Part shown: in pieces, positions 38,812-46,149 of the stretch | How positions within the stretch are numbered: position 1 is the first letter of the stretch | How the letters are laid out: each line of letters begins with the position of its first letter | Source: SAR202 cluster bacterium | Lineage (GTDB): Bacteria > Chloroflexota > Dehalococcoidia > Lucifugimonadales > GCA-2712585 | Assembly (NCBI GenBank): GCA_016872285.1 | Contig: VGZZ01000018.1 | Location: 1 to 46,654, forward strand | DNA length: 46,654 nt | Direction of reading: 5' to 3' | Translations under genes and position numbers: made by a program | The notes under the pieces: generated by a model | The model's database searches: none | Told to the model about the DNA's origin: nothing | The model's input: the letters and a program-made list of their open reading frames with translations, nothing else

Positions 38812-39780
38812 CTAGTACAGGTGACACGCCGCCCAGTGGCCGGGGCGGAGTTCGCGGAGGGGTGGGTCGGTGACATCGCAGGTGCCGCCGATGAATTTGG
38901 GGCAGCGGGGGTGGAAGCGGCAGCCGGCGGGGATACGCGACGGGTTGTGAGGCTCGCCGGCGATGATGGGCCTGGGCTTGAGGCGGTTGGCGGGGTTGGG
39001 AGTGGGCACGGCGGCGATGAGGGCCTGGGTGTATGGGTGCAAAGGATGGTGGATGACATTCTCTTTGGGGCCGAGTTCCACAACTCGTCCAAGATAGAGG
39101 ACGGCGATACGGTGGGAGAAGTGGTGGGCGGTGGCGATGTCGTGGGTGATGTAGAGGAAGGTGAGACCACAGCTCTCCTGGAGGCCGCGAAGCAGTGACA
39201 GGAGGCCGGCGCGGCTGGAGGCGTCGACCATGGACACAGGCTCGTCGGCGACAATGAAGTCAGGGTCTAACACCAGGGCGCGGGCGACGGAGACGCGCTG
39301 GCGCTGGCCGCCGGACATCATGTGGGGGAACTTTTCGGAGAACTCGTGGGGCGGCGTCAGCCCGACTTGCGACAGGGCGTCAAGCATTTTCTGGCGGCGC
39401 TGGTCGGCGTCACCGATTTTATGAACGACCAGAGGTTCCTGGATGATCTGCGAAACGTTCATGTAGGGGTCGAGGCTGGAGAAGGGGTCTTGGAAGATGC
39501 CCTGAATGCGGCGTCGCAGGGCGCGAAGGCTGCCGTCGGCCATAGAAGACACGTCCATGCCGTCGAAGACGACGCTGCCGGAGGTGGGCCTAAGGAGGCC
39601 CAGGCAGACGCGGCCCAGGGTAGTCTTGCCGCTGCCGGACTCGCCGACGACGGCCAGGGTCTCGCCCTTGCCCAGGGACAGGTTGACGCCGTCGAGGGCG
39701 CGCACGGGGGTGGTCTTGAGGAGGCCGGTGCGGGCCTGGAAGACCATGCCGACGTTTTGAATATCGACGAGGGCGTTCAT
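38812..39780 (-). CDS. peptide/nickel-type ABC transporter ATPase, OppF-like
   Basis: A 322-residue ATPase of a dipeptide/oligopeptide importer. Walker A is GESGSGKTT, the signature MSGGQRQR, and Walker [13 protein letters not shown] with Ser-Met-Val where most have Ser-Ala-Leu. The C-terminal oligopeptide-type extension has CRFHPRCP and two more Cys, a known iron-sulfur site in some homologs. The ATG overlaps the oppD stop as ATGA. It is the last gene of the unit. Confidence 0.93.
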
Positions 39781-40745
39781 GACTTTTTATCGACGAGCCA
39801 GCACCTGGATTGGTGGTCTGAAGCGACGGCCAGAAGGCCGGGCGCCTCCATTATGCACCGGTCGAAGCGCAGGGGGCATCGGGGGTGGAAGCGGCAGCCA
39901 GCGGGGGGCGCGGTCATATCGGGGGGCGCGCCGGGGATGAAGTCGGGGAGGGACTCCTGGTCGAGGCGAGGGATGCTGGCGAGGAGTTTTTGGGTGTAGG
40001 GATGATTGGGCCTCGATAGCATCTGCTCGACAGGCCCTATCTCGACAATCTGGCCGGCGTACATGACAGCCACAGAATCGCAGAGGTCGCTGGCGAGGGC
40101 GATGTCGTGGGTGATGAAGATGTAAGAGAGGCCGCTTTTTCGCTTGAGGTCTTTGAGCAAGTTCATGATCTGGGCCTGGACACTGGTGTCGAGGGCGGAG
40201 GTAGGCTCGTCCAGGATGGCGAGGGCGGGGTTCAGGGAAAGGGCCATAACGATGAGGGCGCGCTGCTTCATGCCACCGCTGAGCTCGTGGGGGTATCGCT
40301 GGTAGGTCTCGGCGGGGAGGCCGACGAGGTTGAGGAGGCGCAGGGCTTCATCGCGGGCGGTGTCTTTGCTCATGTCGCCGTTCAGAAGCAGAGGCTCGGC
40401 GACCTGCTGGCCGACGCGGGCGACGGGGTTAAAGGAGTCCATGGCGCCCTGAAAGACCATGGCGATTTTCTTCCACCGCACCTGGCGGCGGAAGGCGTCG
40501 TCGCTGAGGGATAGGGAGTCTACGCCGTCCAGAAGCACCTGGCCGTCGAATCGGGCGACGTTGCGGGGCAGGACGCGCATGAGGGCGAGGCCGAGGCTGC
40601 TTTTGCCTGCGCCGGACTCGCCGACGAGGCCGAGGGCTTGGCCGCGCTCCATGGAAAAGCTGACGCCGTCGACGGCCTGGACAACGCCGGAGGCGGAGCG
40701 GTAGTGGAGGAGGAGGTCTTTTACCTGGAGGAGGGGAGTGGTCAT
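39777..40745 (-). CDS. peptide/nickel-type ABC transporter ATPase, OppD-like
   Basis: A 322-residue ATPase paired with the next gene. Walker A GESGAGKSS, Q-loop region AMVFQGAMDSFNP, signature LSGGMKQR, Walker B LAILDEPTSALD and the switch His in FITHDIA are all present. The C-terminal extension has [14 protein letters not shown]. It is separated from dppC by 175 bases that contain two hairpins, unlike the tight packing elsewhere in the unit. Confidence 0.93.
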   Translation of the reverse strand: MTTPLLQVKDLLLHYRSASGVVQAVDGVSFSMERGQALGLVGESGAGKSSLGLALMRVLPRNVARFDGQVLLDGVDSLSLSDDAFRRQVRWKKIAMVFQGAMDSFNPVARVGQQVAEPLLLNGDMSKDTARDEALRLLNLVGLPAETYQRYPHELSGGMKQRALIVMALSLNPALAILDEPTSALDTSVQAQIMNLLKDLKRKSGLSYIFITHDIALASDLCDSVAVMYAGQIVEIGPVEQMLSRPNHPYTQKLLASIPRLDQESLPDFIPGAPPDMTAPPAGCRFHPRCPLRFDRCIMEAPGLLAVASDHQSRCWLVDKKS

Positions 40746-40920: not shown

Positions 40921-42369
40921 TCACTGGCCGGTCCTTAGTCGTGGGCTGACGATGGGTTCCAGAGCCATGGTCAGCAGCACGAAGCAGAGGGCGGTGACGG
41001 CTATGAGGATACCCGGAGGCAGCACCCACCACCAGTAGCCGACAAAGACAGCGCCGGTGCGGAAGCCGCTTTCGAGTATCTGGCCCCAGGTGGGGATGGA
41101 GGGGTCGCCGAGGCCGAGGAAGCTGAGGCCGGCTTCGGCCAGAATGGCGGCGGGAGTGAAGAAGATGACCTGGGCCAGGAGGAAGGGGGCGATCTGAAAG
41201 ATGACGTGCCGGAACATTATCCGCCACTGGGACGCGCCCAGGGCCTGAGTGGCTTCGACGAGCTGGCCGGAGCGGATTTGCAGCACCATGGAACGGGTGG
41301 TGATGGTAAGGCCGGGCCAGCCGAAGAGGGCCAGGATTAGCACCACCAGCCAGAGTTTAGCGCCGAGGACGAAGATAAGGAAGATGAGGATGGGCAGGAG
41401 GGGGATGTTGGTGAAGACGTCGGCGGTGCGCTGGATGATGATGTCCGTCTTGCCGCCCCGATAGCCGCTGATGATGCCGAGGGCGGCGCCGATGGCCGAG
41501 GATATGAGCGCCGTGCTGATGCCGATGGTGAGGGCGACGGGGAAGCCGAAGAGGAGGCCGGTGAAGAGATCCCGGCCCGTGGCGTCGGTGCCCATGAGGC
41601 CATAGACGGTGCCGCCTCGCACAAACTTGACCGAGTCCACGAAGTTGGCCCTGTCGCGGGCGTCACGCATTTGAAGGTCAACGATGGCAGTGTAGCCGCC
41701 TCGCAGGGGCTGGAAGCCGCCGCCGGGCTGGGGCGTGCCGAAGAGGACGCTTTCGACGCTGCCTTGAAGCTGGGAGGGCTGGGCCTGGAGGCTGAACTCT
41801 TGGAACAAGAAATCAGCAAGGTTGACCTGGACTGAGTCATTGCCGGAGAGGAAGACGCGGTAGGGGGTGTCATCGAAGCGAGTCTGAGGGGTGACGCCGT
41901 CGCCCTGGGGGCCGCGGACCACCTCCTGGAGGACGGTGACGAGGCGGCCGTCGGGGCGTCGAAGGCGGAGAGTGACGACGGGGGGCGTCGAGTAGTAGCT
42001 GACGCCGGAGAGGGAGATGGAGGTGAAAGAGGGGATGGCGCCGGAGGACGCGTCGAAGCTGAAGTTATATCGGAGGAGGGGGCCGGTGTCGCGGGGGTCG
42101 ACGGCGGAGGGGGAGCCAGCGGAGTGGATGTGGTGGACGATGTGGTCTTTGCCGGTGAAGAACCGCCACCAAGAGGGCGGGACGCTCTGGGGGTTGTCGG
42201 CCCAGTAGGCGGGGTTGTTCCACTTGGTCTTGCCGAAGTCCAGGGGGTATACGGCCACCACCACCAGGGATATGACGACCATGCTGAGGAACAGCGCGAC
42301 GCCGATGCGGCCCGAGTTGCTGGACAGCATGAGCTTGAGGGTGCCCTGGCGTCGCAGGAAGCTAAGCAT
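40921..42369 (-). CDS. DppC-like ABC permease with large extracytoplasmic insert
   Basis: A 482-residue permease, about 180 longer than usual. One membrane helix (about 22-42) is followed by some 215 extra residues (about 45-258) outside the cell, beginning WNNPAYWADNPQSVPPSWW and rich in beta-like segments. The normal DppC core then starts at GTDATGRDLFTGLLFG (260-275), with the cytoplasmic coupling loop EATQALGASQWRIMFRHVI and the end GLGDPSIPTWGQIL. The insert may dock the anchored binding protein. The start overlaps the dppB end by eight bases. Confidence 0.9.
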   Translation of the reverse strand: MLSFLRRQGTLKLMLSSNSGRIGVALFLSMVVISLVVVAVYPLDFGKTKWNNPAYWADNPQSVPPSWWRFFTGKDHIVHHIHSAGSPSAVDPRDTGPLLRYNFSFDASSGAIPSFTSISLSGVSYYSTPPVVTLRLRRPDGRLVTVLQEVVRGPQGDGVTPQTRFDDTPYRVFLSGNDSVQVNLADFLFQEFSLQAQPSQLQGSVESVLFGTPQPGGGFQPLRGGYTAIVDLQMRDARDRANFVDSVKFVRGGTVYGLMGTDATGRDLFTGLLFGFPVALTIGISTALISSAIGAALGIISGYRGGKTDIIIQRTADVFTNIPLLPILIFLIFVLGAKLWLVVLILALFGWPGLTITTRSMVLQIRSGQLVEATQALGASQWRIMFRHVIFQIAPFLLAQVIFFTPAAILAEAGLSFLGLGDPSIPTWGQILESGFRTGAVFVGYWWWVLPPGILIAVTALCFVLLTMALEPIVSPRLRTGQ

Positions 42370-43429
42370 AGCGGACTCGAGGGTCGAGGATTACATAAAG
42401 GACTTCGAGGACAAATCGGGCGGCCACGTACATGAGGGTGAAGACGAAGGTCAGGGCGACGATGACGGTCTCGTCGGCGCTCTGGATGGCGTCGAAGTAG
42501 AGGCGGCCCATGCCCGGCCAGTTGAAGACGGTCTCGGTGAGGATGGCGCCGCCCAGGGAGCCGGTGAGGCCGAGGATGAGGCTGGTGACGATGGGCGGCG
42601 CGGCGGCGCGGAGGATGTATCGCCGCATGACCTGGCCTTCCGACAGGCCTTTGGCCCGGGCGACGGTGACGAAGAACTCCTGGCTGGTGTTGAGCACCAT
42701 GGTGCGGACGGCATAAATCCAGCCGCCGAGGGAGACGACGGTGAGGGTGAGGATGGGCAGCAGGGCGTGATATAGGAGGTCGCCGAAGCGGGCGAGGCCG
42801 CCTTCGGGCGGGGGCGTGCCGTAGAGGCCGCCTTCGGGGAAGACGTCGAGATGAAAAGCGAAGATGAGGATGAAGAGGATGCCGGCCCACCAGGCGGGGA
42901 GGGCGAAGGAGACGGCGGAGAGGTAGGAGACGGCCTTGTCCCAGCCGGTGCCGGCGCGGGTGGCCAGCTTGACCCCGACCCACAGGCCGATGACCGAGGT
43001 GATGACCGAGGCGGTGGTGACGAGAAGTATGGTGCGAGGCAGGCGTTCCATGATAAGGCTGCTGACCTTGGAGGAGCCGTCGGAAGTGCGGAGGGTACGG
43101 GCCTGGCCCAGGTCCAGGGTGACGACGCGCCGCGTGACGTTGGGGAGGTTCTGGTACCAGGGCTTGTCGAGGCCGTAGAAGCGGACCAGCTCGTCGCGGC
43201 GGGCCTGAAGGGCGTTTTCGAGCTGGAGGGGGTCGCGGATGGTGCGTGCCAGGACCTCGCGCTCGCCGCGAAGCTGCTCGCTCATGGTGGCGGTGAGGAT
43301 GCGCTCGGAGAAGCCGGTGGCGCCCAGGGTGATGATGACGAGGAGAAGCACGACCACCAGGACGCCCAGGAGGGTGAGGCCGCGTATAGCGAGGGTTCTA
43401 CCTAGCGACATAGATCCCGTGTCGTGCAA
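42362..43429 (-). CDS. DppB-like ABC permease
   Basis: A 355-residue permease with an N-terminal helix, an extracytoplasmic stretch (about 40-130) including LVRFYGLDKPWYQN, and five further helices. The coupling loop reads VARAKGLSEGQVMRRYILR and the core ends ETVFNWPGMGRL, typical of the family. The start is TTG 43429 or, as likely, ATG 43411 (SLGRTLAIRG). It forms the membrane channel with the DppC-like protein. Confidence 0.93.
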   Translation of the reverse strand: MHDTGSMSLGRTLAIRGLTLLGVLVVVLLLVIITLGATGFSERILTATMSEQLRGEREVLARTIRDPLQLENALQARRDELVRFYGLDKPWYQNLPNVTRRVVTLDLGQARTLRTSDGSSKVSSLIMERLPRTILLVTTASVITSVIGLWVGVKLATRAGTGWDKAVSYLSAVSFALPAWWAGILFILIFAFHLDVFPEGGLYGTPPPEGGLARFGDLLYHALLPILTLTVVSLGGWIYAVRTMVLNTSQEFFVTVARAKGLSEGQVMRRYILRAAAPPIVTSLILGLTGSLGGAILTETVFNWPGMGRLYFDAIQSADETVIVALTFVFTLMYVAARFVLEVLYVILDPRVRYA

Positions 43430-43584: not shown

Positions 43585-46149
43585 TTAGGCGGGAGTGCCG
43601 GGCCGTCGCGCCATACGCATGAGGAAGAAGCCGCCGACGCCCAGCAACGCTACCAAGGCCACCGCTACCACGGCGATGAGGATTATGCCGGAGCCGCCGC
43701 CGTCATCGTCGGTGGCGGGGGGCTGGCCGTCGATGGGGAAGTCCTGGCTGCTAGCGGCGCCGGGGCGCTCCGCCACCTCCAGGTTCACGCGGCGCTCGGC
43801 CAGGGCGGAGACCTGGTCGCTGAAGGCGGTGATGTATAGCTGGTAGAGGCCCAGAGAGAGTTTGTTGGTGTCATCCTTGGAGAGGCTGATGCGGTACGCG
43901 CCGTCGCCGGTGCGCTGGGCGTCGCCGGAGGCCGCCAGCTTGTTGGCGACGGGGTCGAAGAGGCGATACTTGACGCCGAGGGCGCCCGGGCCTTGAGCCT
44001 GGATGTCGATGGCGCCGTCGAAGCCTTTGCCGAGGACGGGGGCGCGGACGCTGCTAATGGCGACGGCGGGGGGCGCGCCGAAGTGCCAGTCGCCGGGCTT
44101 GAAGGGGTAGGAGCTATCGCGGTAGGCCTGGAGCTCGGCAAACTGGGCGGGGGCATCGAAGCGCGTCAGCATATAGGAACCGTTGCTGATAACAGCCAGG
44201 TTGCGCTGGGCGATCCATTCGGAGGAGGCGGTATAGCGCTTCACGGCGTCGTCACGGCTGACGAGGGTGGTGCTGCCGACTTTGAAGACATTTTCGGGGA
44301 CCTTGCCGGCGGTCTGGAACTCGCGCAGGGTGTTGCGAACCTCGCGGGCGTGGCGGTCCAGGATAAGGCTGAGCCAGTCGACGCCGAAGCGGGAGGCGGC
44401 GGTATCGCTGTAGGCCAGGCGGCGCTTGGTGAACACCAGCTCGTCCATGGCGGCCAGCATCTCCCAGGGGGTGGTGAGACCGGAGGGCGTGGCGTATTCG
44501 GCGATGTAGTCGGGAGCGAAGTGCCAGTAGTCGACGTAGACTTCCAGACGGCTGCTGTCCACGATTCGGTAGCCCTTGATGGTCTCCAGGTAGGGCTTGC
44601 TGGTGGTGGCCTGGGCGAATTCGATGTTGGCCTTGTTGGGGTTGTAGGCGATATCGAAGCCCTGGTAGATGGAGTAGATAACGTCCGCCATGGTGATGGG
44701 CTGGCCGTTGTGCCACTTGGCGTTGAAGTACTTGGAGAAGTCGAAGGTGACCTTGCTGGTGGCCTGGGCGCCGGAGGCGACGTTTTTGAAGGCGTTGGAA
44801 GGCACGTCCCACAGGACGGCTTCGCCGGGGATGGCGAGCTTGCCGCTGGGGCCGGAGGTTTCCACTTTATAGCTAACGCGGAAGGGTATGGGGAGGCCGG
44901 TGAAGGGGTGGCGGGCCATGGGCGGGTCGAAGATGTTGCGCCAGATATCGACGCTATAGACGTCGCCGAAGCCGCCCTCGGGGTTCCAGGTGGTGCGCTC
45001 CGTCCACACCCACTGGTTGCCGATGGTAACGCTGTCCTTGCCCTCAATGTAGGCCTCGCGCAGGGTCCAGAGAGCCTTGGGGCCGGAGGCGATGTCCTGG
45101 GTGACGCCGTGGACCTTGTCGGTGGCGGGGAAGGTGTTGGAGACGGTGGCGACCCAGAGGCGGATGGACTCGTCCAGGCTGAGGCGCGTCATCTCCTGGT
45201 ATAGACGGGTGCGCTCGTTGACGTCGGCGAACTGGCCTCGATAGATGCGCTGTCCGATTTCGTCCAGCTTCTGGTTGGCGTACTGCCAGTAACCGACCTC
45301 CTGCCAGCCGGGCATGTTGCCCAGCCAGGGGGCGGACATCTGGTTGATGGTGACGTAGTCGTAACGCTCAGCGGCGCCGCGGCCCCAGCCTTCGGTATAG
45401 ATATGCCACTGGAACTGCTGGGGGTCGGTGCTGTAGACGTTGAGGACGGCGGGGGCGAACTGGTGGTAGACGCGGCTGACGGTGAAGCCGAGCTTATCGA
45501 GTTCGGCGCTGACCAGGTCGCCGATTTCACGGCGCTCGTCCTCGACTCGGATGATGAACTTTAGCTGGATAGGCCGGCCGTTGAAGCTCCACTTGCCGTT
45601 GGACATGGTGGCGCCGGCGGAGGTCATGGCCCGGTCGACAAGCTGTTTGGCCTTCTGGGGATCGTAGGCGATGTCGAACTCCTGGGCCAAGGCGGCGACA
45701 TCCAGGTAGTCGTAGTCGGAGGGGCTGACGTGGGTGACCATGGGCTCCGCCAGGCCCTCGTAAATCTCCTGGGATATGAAGGGGCGGTTGATGACGTGCT
45801 GGATGGCGCGGCGGACCTCTTTGATGGAGAAGGGGTTAAACTCGCCGCGGACGGCGGGGGCGGGGTTGAGGATGAGGGAGAGGGTGGAGGCAGGGGCGCG
45901 ATAGGTGGCGACGCCCTGGGCACCTTCCAGCTGCTTGGCCGCGGCGGTCTTGAGGCTGAAGACGTACATATCGATGTCGCCGTTGCGGAGGGAGTTGGAG
46001 GCGACGTCGTTGTTGACGGCGCGGAAGAGGAGGCGGTCGGCGGCGGGGCCGGGCCGGCTATGGGGCGGCTTGTAGGTCTGGGCGGAGACAGCGCCCAGGG
46101 CGAGCATAGAGAATAGAGTCAGGGTTAGCAGAATTAAGGCTAATCGCAT
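43585..46149 (-). CDS. membrane-anchored peptide-type binding protein with swapped halves
   Basis: An 854-residue extracytoplasmic solute-binding protein of the SBP_bac_5 type, about 300 longer than usual. A Sec signal (1-23, cut near VSA-QT) is followed by residues 38-350, which look like the C-terminal half of the family (LRNGDIDMYVF, FSIKEVRRAIQHVINRPFIS, YDPQKAKQLVD, LDKLGFTV). Residues 355-690 look like the N-terminal half (KWHNGQPITMADVIYS, NGSYMLTRFDA). A beta-sandwich (690-793), an acidic linker, a membrane helix (821-844) and a basic tail end it. AAGGA lies ten bases before the ATG. Confidence 0.85.
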   Translation of the reverse strand: MRLALILLTLTLFSMLALGAVSAQTYKPPHSRPGPAADRLLFRAVNNDVASNSLRNGDIDMYVFSLKTAAAKQLEGAQGVATYRAPASTLSLILNPAPAVRGEFNPFSIKEVRRAIQHVINRPFISQEIYEGLAEPMVTHVSPSDYDYLDVAALAQEFDIAYDPQKAKQLVDRAMTSAGATMSNGKWSFNGRPIQLKFIIRVEDERREIGDLVSAELDKLGFTVSRVYHQFAPAVLNVYSTDPQQFQWHIYTEGWGRGAAERYDYVTINQMSAPWLGNMPGWQEVGYWQYANQKLDEIGQRIYRGQFADVNERTRLYQEMTRLSLDESIRLWVATVSNTFPATDKVHGVTQDIASGPKALWTLREAYIEGKDSVTIGNQWVWTERTTWNPEGGFGDVYSVDIWRNIFDPPMARHPFTGLPIPFRVSYKVETSGPSGKLAIPGEAVLWDVPSNAFKNVASGAQATSKVTFDFSKYFNAKWHNGQPITMADVIYSIYQGFDIAYNPNKANIEFAQATTSKPYLETIKGYRIVDSSRLEVYVDYWHFAPDYIAEYATPSGLTTPWEMLAAMDELVFTKRRLAYSDTAASRFGVDWLSLILDRHAREVRNTLREFQTAGKVPENVFKVGSTTLVSRDDAVKRYTASSEWIAQRNLAVISNGSYMLTRFDAPAQFAELQAYRDSSYPFKPGDWHFGAPPAVAISSVRAPVLGKGFDGAIDIQAQGPGALGVKYRLFDPVANKLAASGDAQRTGDGAYRISLSKDDTNKLSLGLYQLYITAFSDQVSALAERRVNLEVAERPGAASSQDFPIDGQPPATDDDGGGSGIILIAVVAVALVALLGVGGFFLMRMARRPGTPA

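Follow-up and report, generated by a model that had tools for sequence, protein, structure and literature searches.

The gene at 43585-46149 raises the question of whether its product carries the two halves of an SBP_bac_5 binding domain in swapped order, as a preliminary description had read it, and, if so, what the protein does and how the arrangement came about. The window is the whole stretch of 46,654 nucleotides from a SAR202 cluster bacterium that was analysed. The reading frame starts with an ATG at 46149, has an in-frame stop upstream and is open for 867 codons. The layout of the encoded chain is as follows.

43585-46149, minus strand: permuted SBP_bac_5 gene, 854 aa, complete within the contig
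46081..46149, minus strand: signal peptide, residues 1-23 (helix 2-21 in the model, hydrophobic N-terminus in homologues, predicted cleavage site)
45037..46062, minus strand: native C-terminal half ("B"), residues 30-371 (PF00496; alignment to 7fi3 and DppA)
44068..45036, minus strand: native N-terminal half ("A"), residues 372-694 (PF00496; own AlphaFold model)
43762..44067, minus strand: Ig-like beta-sandwich, residues 695-796 (strands in both models; VIA-align)
43693..43761, minus strand: low-confidence linker, residues 797-819 (pLDDT under 50 at 809-822)
43609..43692, minus strand: C-terminal transmembrane helix, residues 820-847 (hydrophobic helix 820-847 in the model, then basic residues, RMARR)

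Order of the two halves in the chain

Motifs of the native second half stand early in the chain (GDIDMY at 57-62, VRRAIQHVINR at 112-122 and YDPQKAKQL at 162-170) and those of the native first half late (WHNGQPITMADV at 479-490 and SNGSYML at 655-661), where the preliminary description had placed them. The Pfam matches, which it had proposed to map, fall in reversed order: PF00496 (SBP_bac_5) is the sole family matched, profile positions 146-357 falling on residues 35-266 (89 bits) and positions 26-62 on the C-terminal part (22.7 bits alone), with a total of 107.1 bits that lies above the curated Pfam cut-off of 32.4. The canonical N-to-C order of the profile is thus absent from the native chain, and because of this the protein is a permuted variant of SBP_bac_5 and not an ordinary member. 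Continuity was recovered by rotating the sequence computationally, with residues 372-694 placed before residues 30-371, which yielded one PF00496 stretch (profile 26-357, 116.4 bits) as against two stretches and 107.1 bits for the native sequence.

Comparison with solved proteins gave the same picture. The best PDB match of the native sequence is the OppA of Thermococcus kodakaraensis (TkOppA, 7fi3), in crossed pieces, with 22-304 aligned to 387-677 and 333-596 to 47-283 (E 5e-39), and these pieces were recovered again, likewise crossed, when an alignment profile was searched against PDB sequences (E 3.9e-76), whereas the rotated sequence matches TkOppA in one stretch, 22-596 (E 1.4e-41). Full-length homologues in other genomes of the window's taxonomic order share this chain order at 48-60% identity, which rules out chance or a misread frame.

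The full chain was modelled by AlphaFold2 from a 56-row alignment with a pLDDT of 90.2 and a pTM of 0.86, and residues 366-806 modelled alone reached a pLDDT of 92. The halves were superposed on 7fi3 separately and not in one frame: residues 30-371 align by VIA-align to 332-755 (Z 26.8, rmsd 2.6, 336 aa) and also to DppA (1dpp) 199-507, while residues 372-694 align from residue 34 of 7fi3 (Z 32.3, rmsd 2.5, 304 aa; the range is given as ending at 738, with a few pairs near the chain end) and also to NikA 4-190 and DppA 1-210. Together the two DppA segments make up a complete cluster C fold. Among the matches listed by Foldseek, no solved protein spans the whole model in its own chain order (TMq at most 0.33). 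Neither of the arrangements that would speak against a permutation was seen, as the AlphaFold models lack ordinary connectivity and tandem full-length SBP domains are absent, each half occurring once. The reversed Pfam order, the rescue by rotation and the fold matches of both halves therefore uphold the reading of the gene as a circular permutation.

The new termini lie at the domain-I boundary, at about residue 200-210 of mature DppA and just before the strand DRLLFRAV, and the join from B to A at about residues 366-372 (EAYIEGKD) is a short loop that unites the native termini; its length is nearly invariant among 174 permuted proteins (0-8 extra residues, median 1). Since sequence order alone cannot tell intra- from intermolecular assembly, the B half of one molecule might instead pair with the A half of another in a domain-swapped dimer, but the pTM of the monomer and the very short loop between the halves favour intramolecular packing and leave such a dimer very little probability.

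Beyond the permuted binding domain, the beta-sandwich and the C-terminal membrane helix that the preliminary description had noted were both recovered, the former with VIA-align Z scores of about 10 against Ig-like domains of Cel9A, beta-glucuronidase and TRAP, and one relative has a FlgD_ig match at this position. The anchor is not a fixed part of the family, given that a simple hydropathy test found a hydrophobic C-terminal helix in only 94 of the 174 permuted proteins.

Transporter partners and proposed function

Downstream of the SBP gene and on the same strand lie four genes that form an operon with it.

42362..43429, minus strand: OppB-type permease, 355 aa (BPD_transp_1, 122.7 bits; Opp4B, 186 bits)
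40921..42369, minus strand: OppC-type permease, 482 aa (family matches begin only at residues 257 and 294)
39777..40745, minus strand: OppD-type ATPase, 322 aa (OppD subfamily, 296 bits)
38812..39780, minus strand: OppF/DppF-type ATPase, 322 aa (dipeptide ATP-binding subfamily, 314 bits)

The OppC protein has about 200 extra residues ahead of its permease core (window positions about 41605-42237), and an OppC of 470-510 aa is the typical partner of the family in permuted and normal order alike. The gene order SBP-OppB-OppC-OppD-OppF is kept across several phyla and in both chain orders, with some local rearrangement. As the SBP gene heads an OppB-OppC-OppD-OppF operon, the operon most likely encodes a working oligopeptide importer.

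Our overall reading is that an Opp-type ABC importer very probably uses this protein as its extracytoplasmic substrate-binding subunit, and that the binding domain has the archaeal OppA fold in circularly permuted form. The native C- and N-termini, neighbours in domain I, would be fused by a loop of few residues, and the rotated domain would fold into the usual two-lobed clamp with an oligopeptide held between the lobes. The clamp would hand the predicted oligopeptide to OppB and OppC, with OppD and OppF providing ATP, and the rotation would be limited to the binding domain, the secretion signal and the membrane anchor staying at the chain ends. Cluster C proteins related to this one bind sugars or metal complexes; a peptide ligand and the same clamp motion are suggested here by analogy, because of the kinship with TkOppA, which was crystallised with an endogenous pentapeptide and has the RVEDER and YTEGW motifs in common with the 854-aa protein. 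An anchored protein bearing an Ig-like domain might also be a sensor, or an adhesin at the cell surface, whose binding domain has decayed and which plays no part in transport, yet its motifs are strongly conserved, the two permeases and two ATPases accompany it in a conserved operon across phyla, and the anchor is absent from many members in other phyla, all of which makes this reading highly improbable.

Distribution and history of the permuted order

No second protein in permuted order was seen in the genome from which the window comes, where the remaining long PF00496 matches have the ordinary order. The permutation is nevertheless not peculiar to that genome and characterises a large family across archaea and bacteria. 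A single-protein scan of GTDB contigs detected no relative, while an alignment scan detected 216, the best 80 of which include members from Chloroflexota, Thaumarchaeota/Nitrososphaerota, Caldarchaeum, Thermoprotei, Calidithermus, Trueperaceae, Spirochaetota, Atribacteria, Aerophobetes and Poribacteria. Permuted relatives at 40-60% identity occur in Chloroflexota, Nitrososphaerota, Thermoproteota, Deinococcota, Spirochaetota and others, and distant relatives at 21-27% identity have the permuted order too. With a broader profile, 124 of the 200 genomes sampled from the archaeal phylum to which G374 belongs gave a match (this phylum was sampled twice and is counted once), as did 29 of 301 Chloroflexota genomes and 13 of 111 from the phylum of Calidithermus; protein searches of plasmids gave no relative.

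When the halves were scored separately in 242 ORFs, which include some loci entered twice, 236 had B before A, one was a contig fragment, and the five A-then-B entries came down to three distinct proteins (L155, L226 and L227); no ORF of the form ABAB, BAB or ABA was present among those scored. The permuted order thus dominates in the long OppA family and the normal order is rare.

The normal-order proteins L226 and L227 come from two genomes, lie on large contigs and share about 80% identity. In both halves they are 35-41% identical to the permuted proteins L215-L218 (38-41% to L215), and they share with their permuted relatives the operon type, a Thr-rich linker and a C-terminal helix, although no sandwich domain was detected in them. 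In Pfam searches the native C-terminal half falls late in L226/L227 and early in the permuted sister. A careful tree joins L226/L227 and L215-L218 in one clade (100/99), and a single clade of all permuted proteins is rejected (p-AU 8.7e-5). In a quick tree of the B half with ordinary SBPs as outgroup, all long OppA proteins including TkOppA form one group (97), within which normal-order members appear at three places. Because of these placements and the rejected single clade, the chain order must have changed at least twice in the long OppA family. The breakpoints look identical in both chain orders.

The direction of these changes depends on the root. A search of 200 archaeal genomes with TkOppA as query found no close relative at E 1e-40, and the rooting therefore rests on one long branch and the ordinary SBPs. 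We suggest tentatively, at somewhat less than even chances, that the dominant, permuted order is also an old one and that the canonical order was regained by reverse permutation at the same breakpoints in L226/L227 and perhaps in TkOppA and L155. Two or more independent forward permutations may instead account for the pattern. Were the reversal true, with the permuted order ancestral, a natural circular permutation would have been undone in evolution. L155 (L288:2-1339), of the Chloroflexota subfamily, has the end of an A half followed by a B half, is without an anchor and lies upstream of OppBCDF; as the protein begins at a contig edge, it may be either a normal-order AB relative or a BAB intermediate.

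For the permuted order itself we propose, as the preliminary description had tentatively done, an origin by duplication and loss: the binding domain would have been duplicated in tandem and in frame, and the first A and the last B would then have been lost. The same swapped order would also result if the C-terminal half of one paralogue were fused to the N-terminal half of another, with no rotation of a single gene. However, TkOppA is the closest solved relative of both halves by sequence and by fold, which points to a single parental family for the two, both halves of L226/L227 share the same nearest permuted protein (L215/L228), and the halves jointly cover the entire fold, so that we regard a fusion of two genes as a most doubtful origin.

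Two candidate reasons for the rotation were also considered. A tie to the enlarged OppC was rejected, since the normal-order loci L286 and L289 have an enlarged OppC as well, and a role in C-terminal tethering is weakened by the many permuted members without an anchor and by the C-terminally tethered, normal-order L226/L227. Neither tethering nor the enlarged OppC thus explains the rotation.

Relation to known binding proteins and variants of the family

TkOppA belongs to the same long archaeal OppA family, but has the ordinary order, its residues 22-309 matching 387-677 of the 854-aa protein and its residues 316-618 matching the N-terminal half. E. coli DppA and NikA (cluster C) likewise share the fold, PF00496 and adjacent Opp-type permeases and ATPases, but are of ordinary order and about 500 residues, whereas the present protein is rotated and carries a sandwich and an anchor in addition. 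The one natural precedent found for a circularly permuted substrate-binding protein is TpMglB-2 (Tp0684) of Treponema pallidum, which keeps ligand binding and conformational change and for which a "cluster Bc" was proposed (PMC4990184). Natural permutation of an SBP is what our protein shares with cluster Bc; by description, the fold of TpMglB-2 is type I (cluster B) and sugar-binding, while ours is cluster C and OppA-like, to judge from its PF00496 match and from every top fold match of the binding domain, so that the rotation would have arisen independently.

The permuted long OppA family is apparently unreported, as no permuted cluster C protein was present in the PDB copy or the open literature searched, although an earlier description in subscription papers is possible. 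Few transport proteins have been studied as thoroughly as those of SBP_bac_5, and yet this apparently rotated family, common in archaea, is unflagged in the Pfam and NCBIfam models searched. This affects the annotation of archaeal OppA-like proteins, through split matches and wrongly set domain boundaries, as well as their homology modelling and construct design. One archaeal binding protein that has been studied is the OppA of Sulfolobus (OppAss), for which a role as virus receptor has been considered possible (PMC4456609). In addition, relatives of opposite order in the same operon represent a natural experiment on chain order versus folding, secretion and permease docking.

The family also varies at its C-terminus. 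Four permuted members from Calidithermus, Spirochaetota and Atribacteria (L069, L079, L086 and L100) stop directly behind the sandwich, have neither an anchor nor an obvious lipobox, and from their sequences look like soluble secreted proteins. Several members from Dehalococcoidia (L027 and L056, an 837 aa ORF, as well as L028, L029, L030, L032 and L037) have a C-terminal GGFSC[AS]GP or similar short Cys motif and no helix, and the C-termini of L039/L041 consist of GGGCGRG, a hydrophobic stretch and RRR; these Cys-containing ends are possibly C-terminal sorting or Cys-processing signals. Finally, at G000:C23:22497-23631 (L021, L023) PF00496 is split over two adjacent frames, with profile positions 3-187 and 210-353, which may reflect either a disrupted SBP gene or a fault in the assembly.
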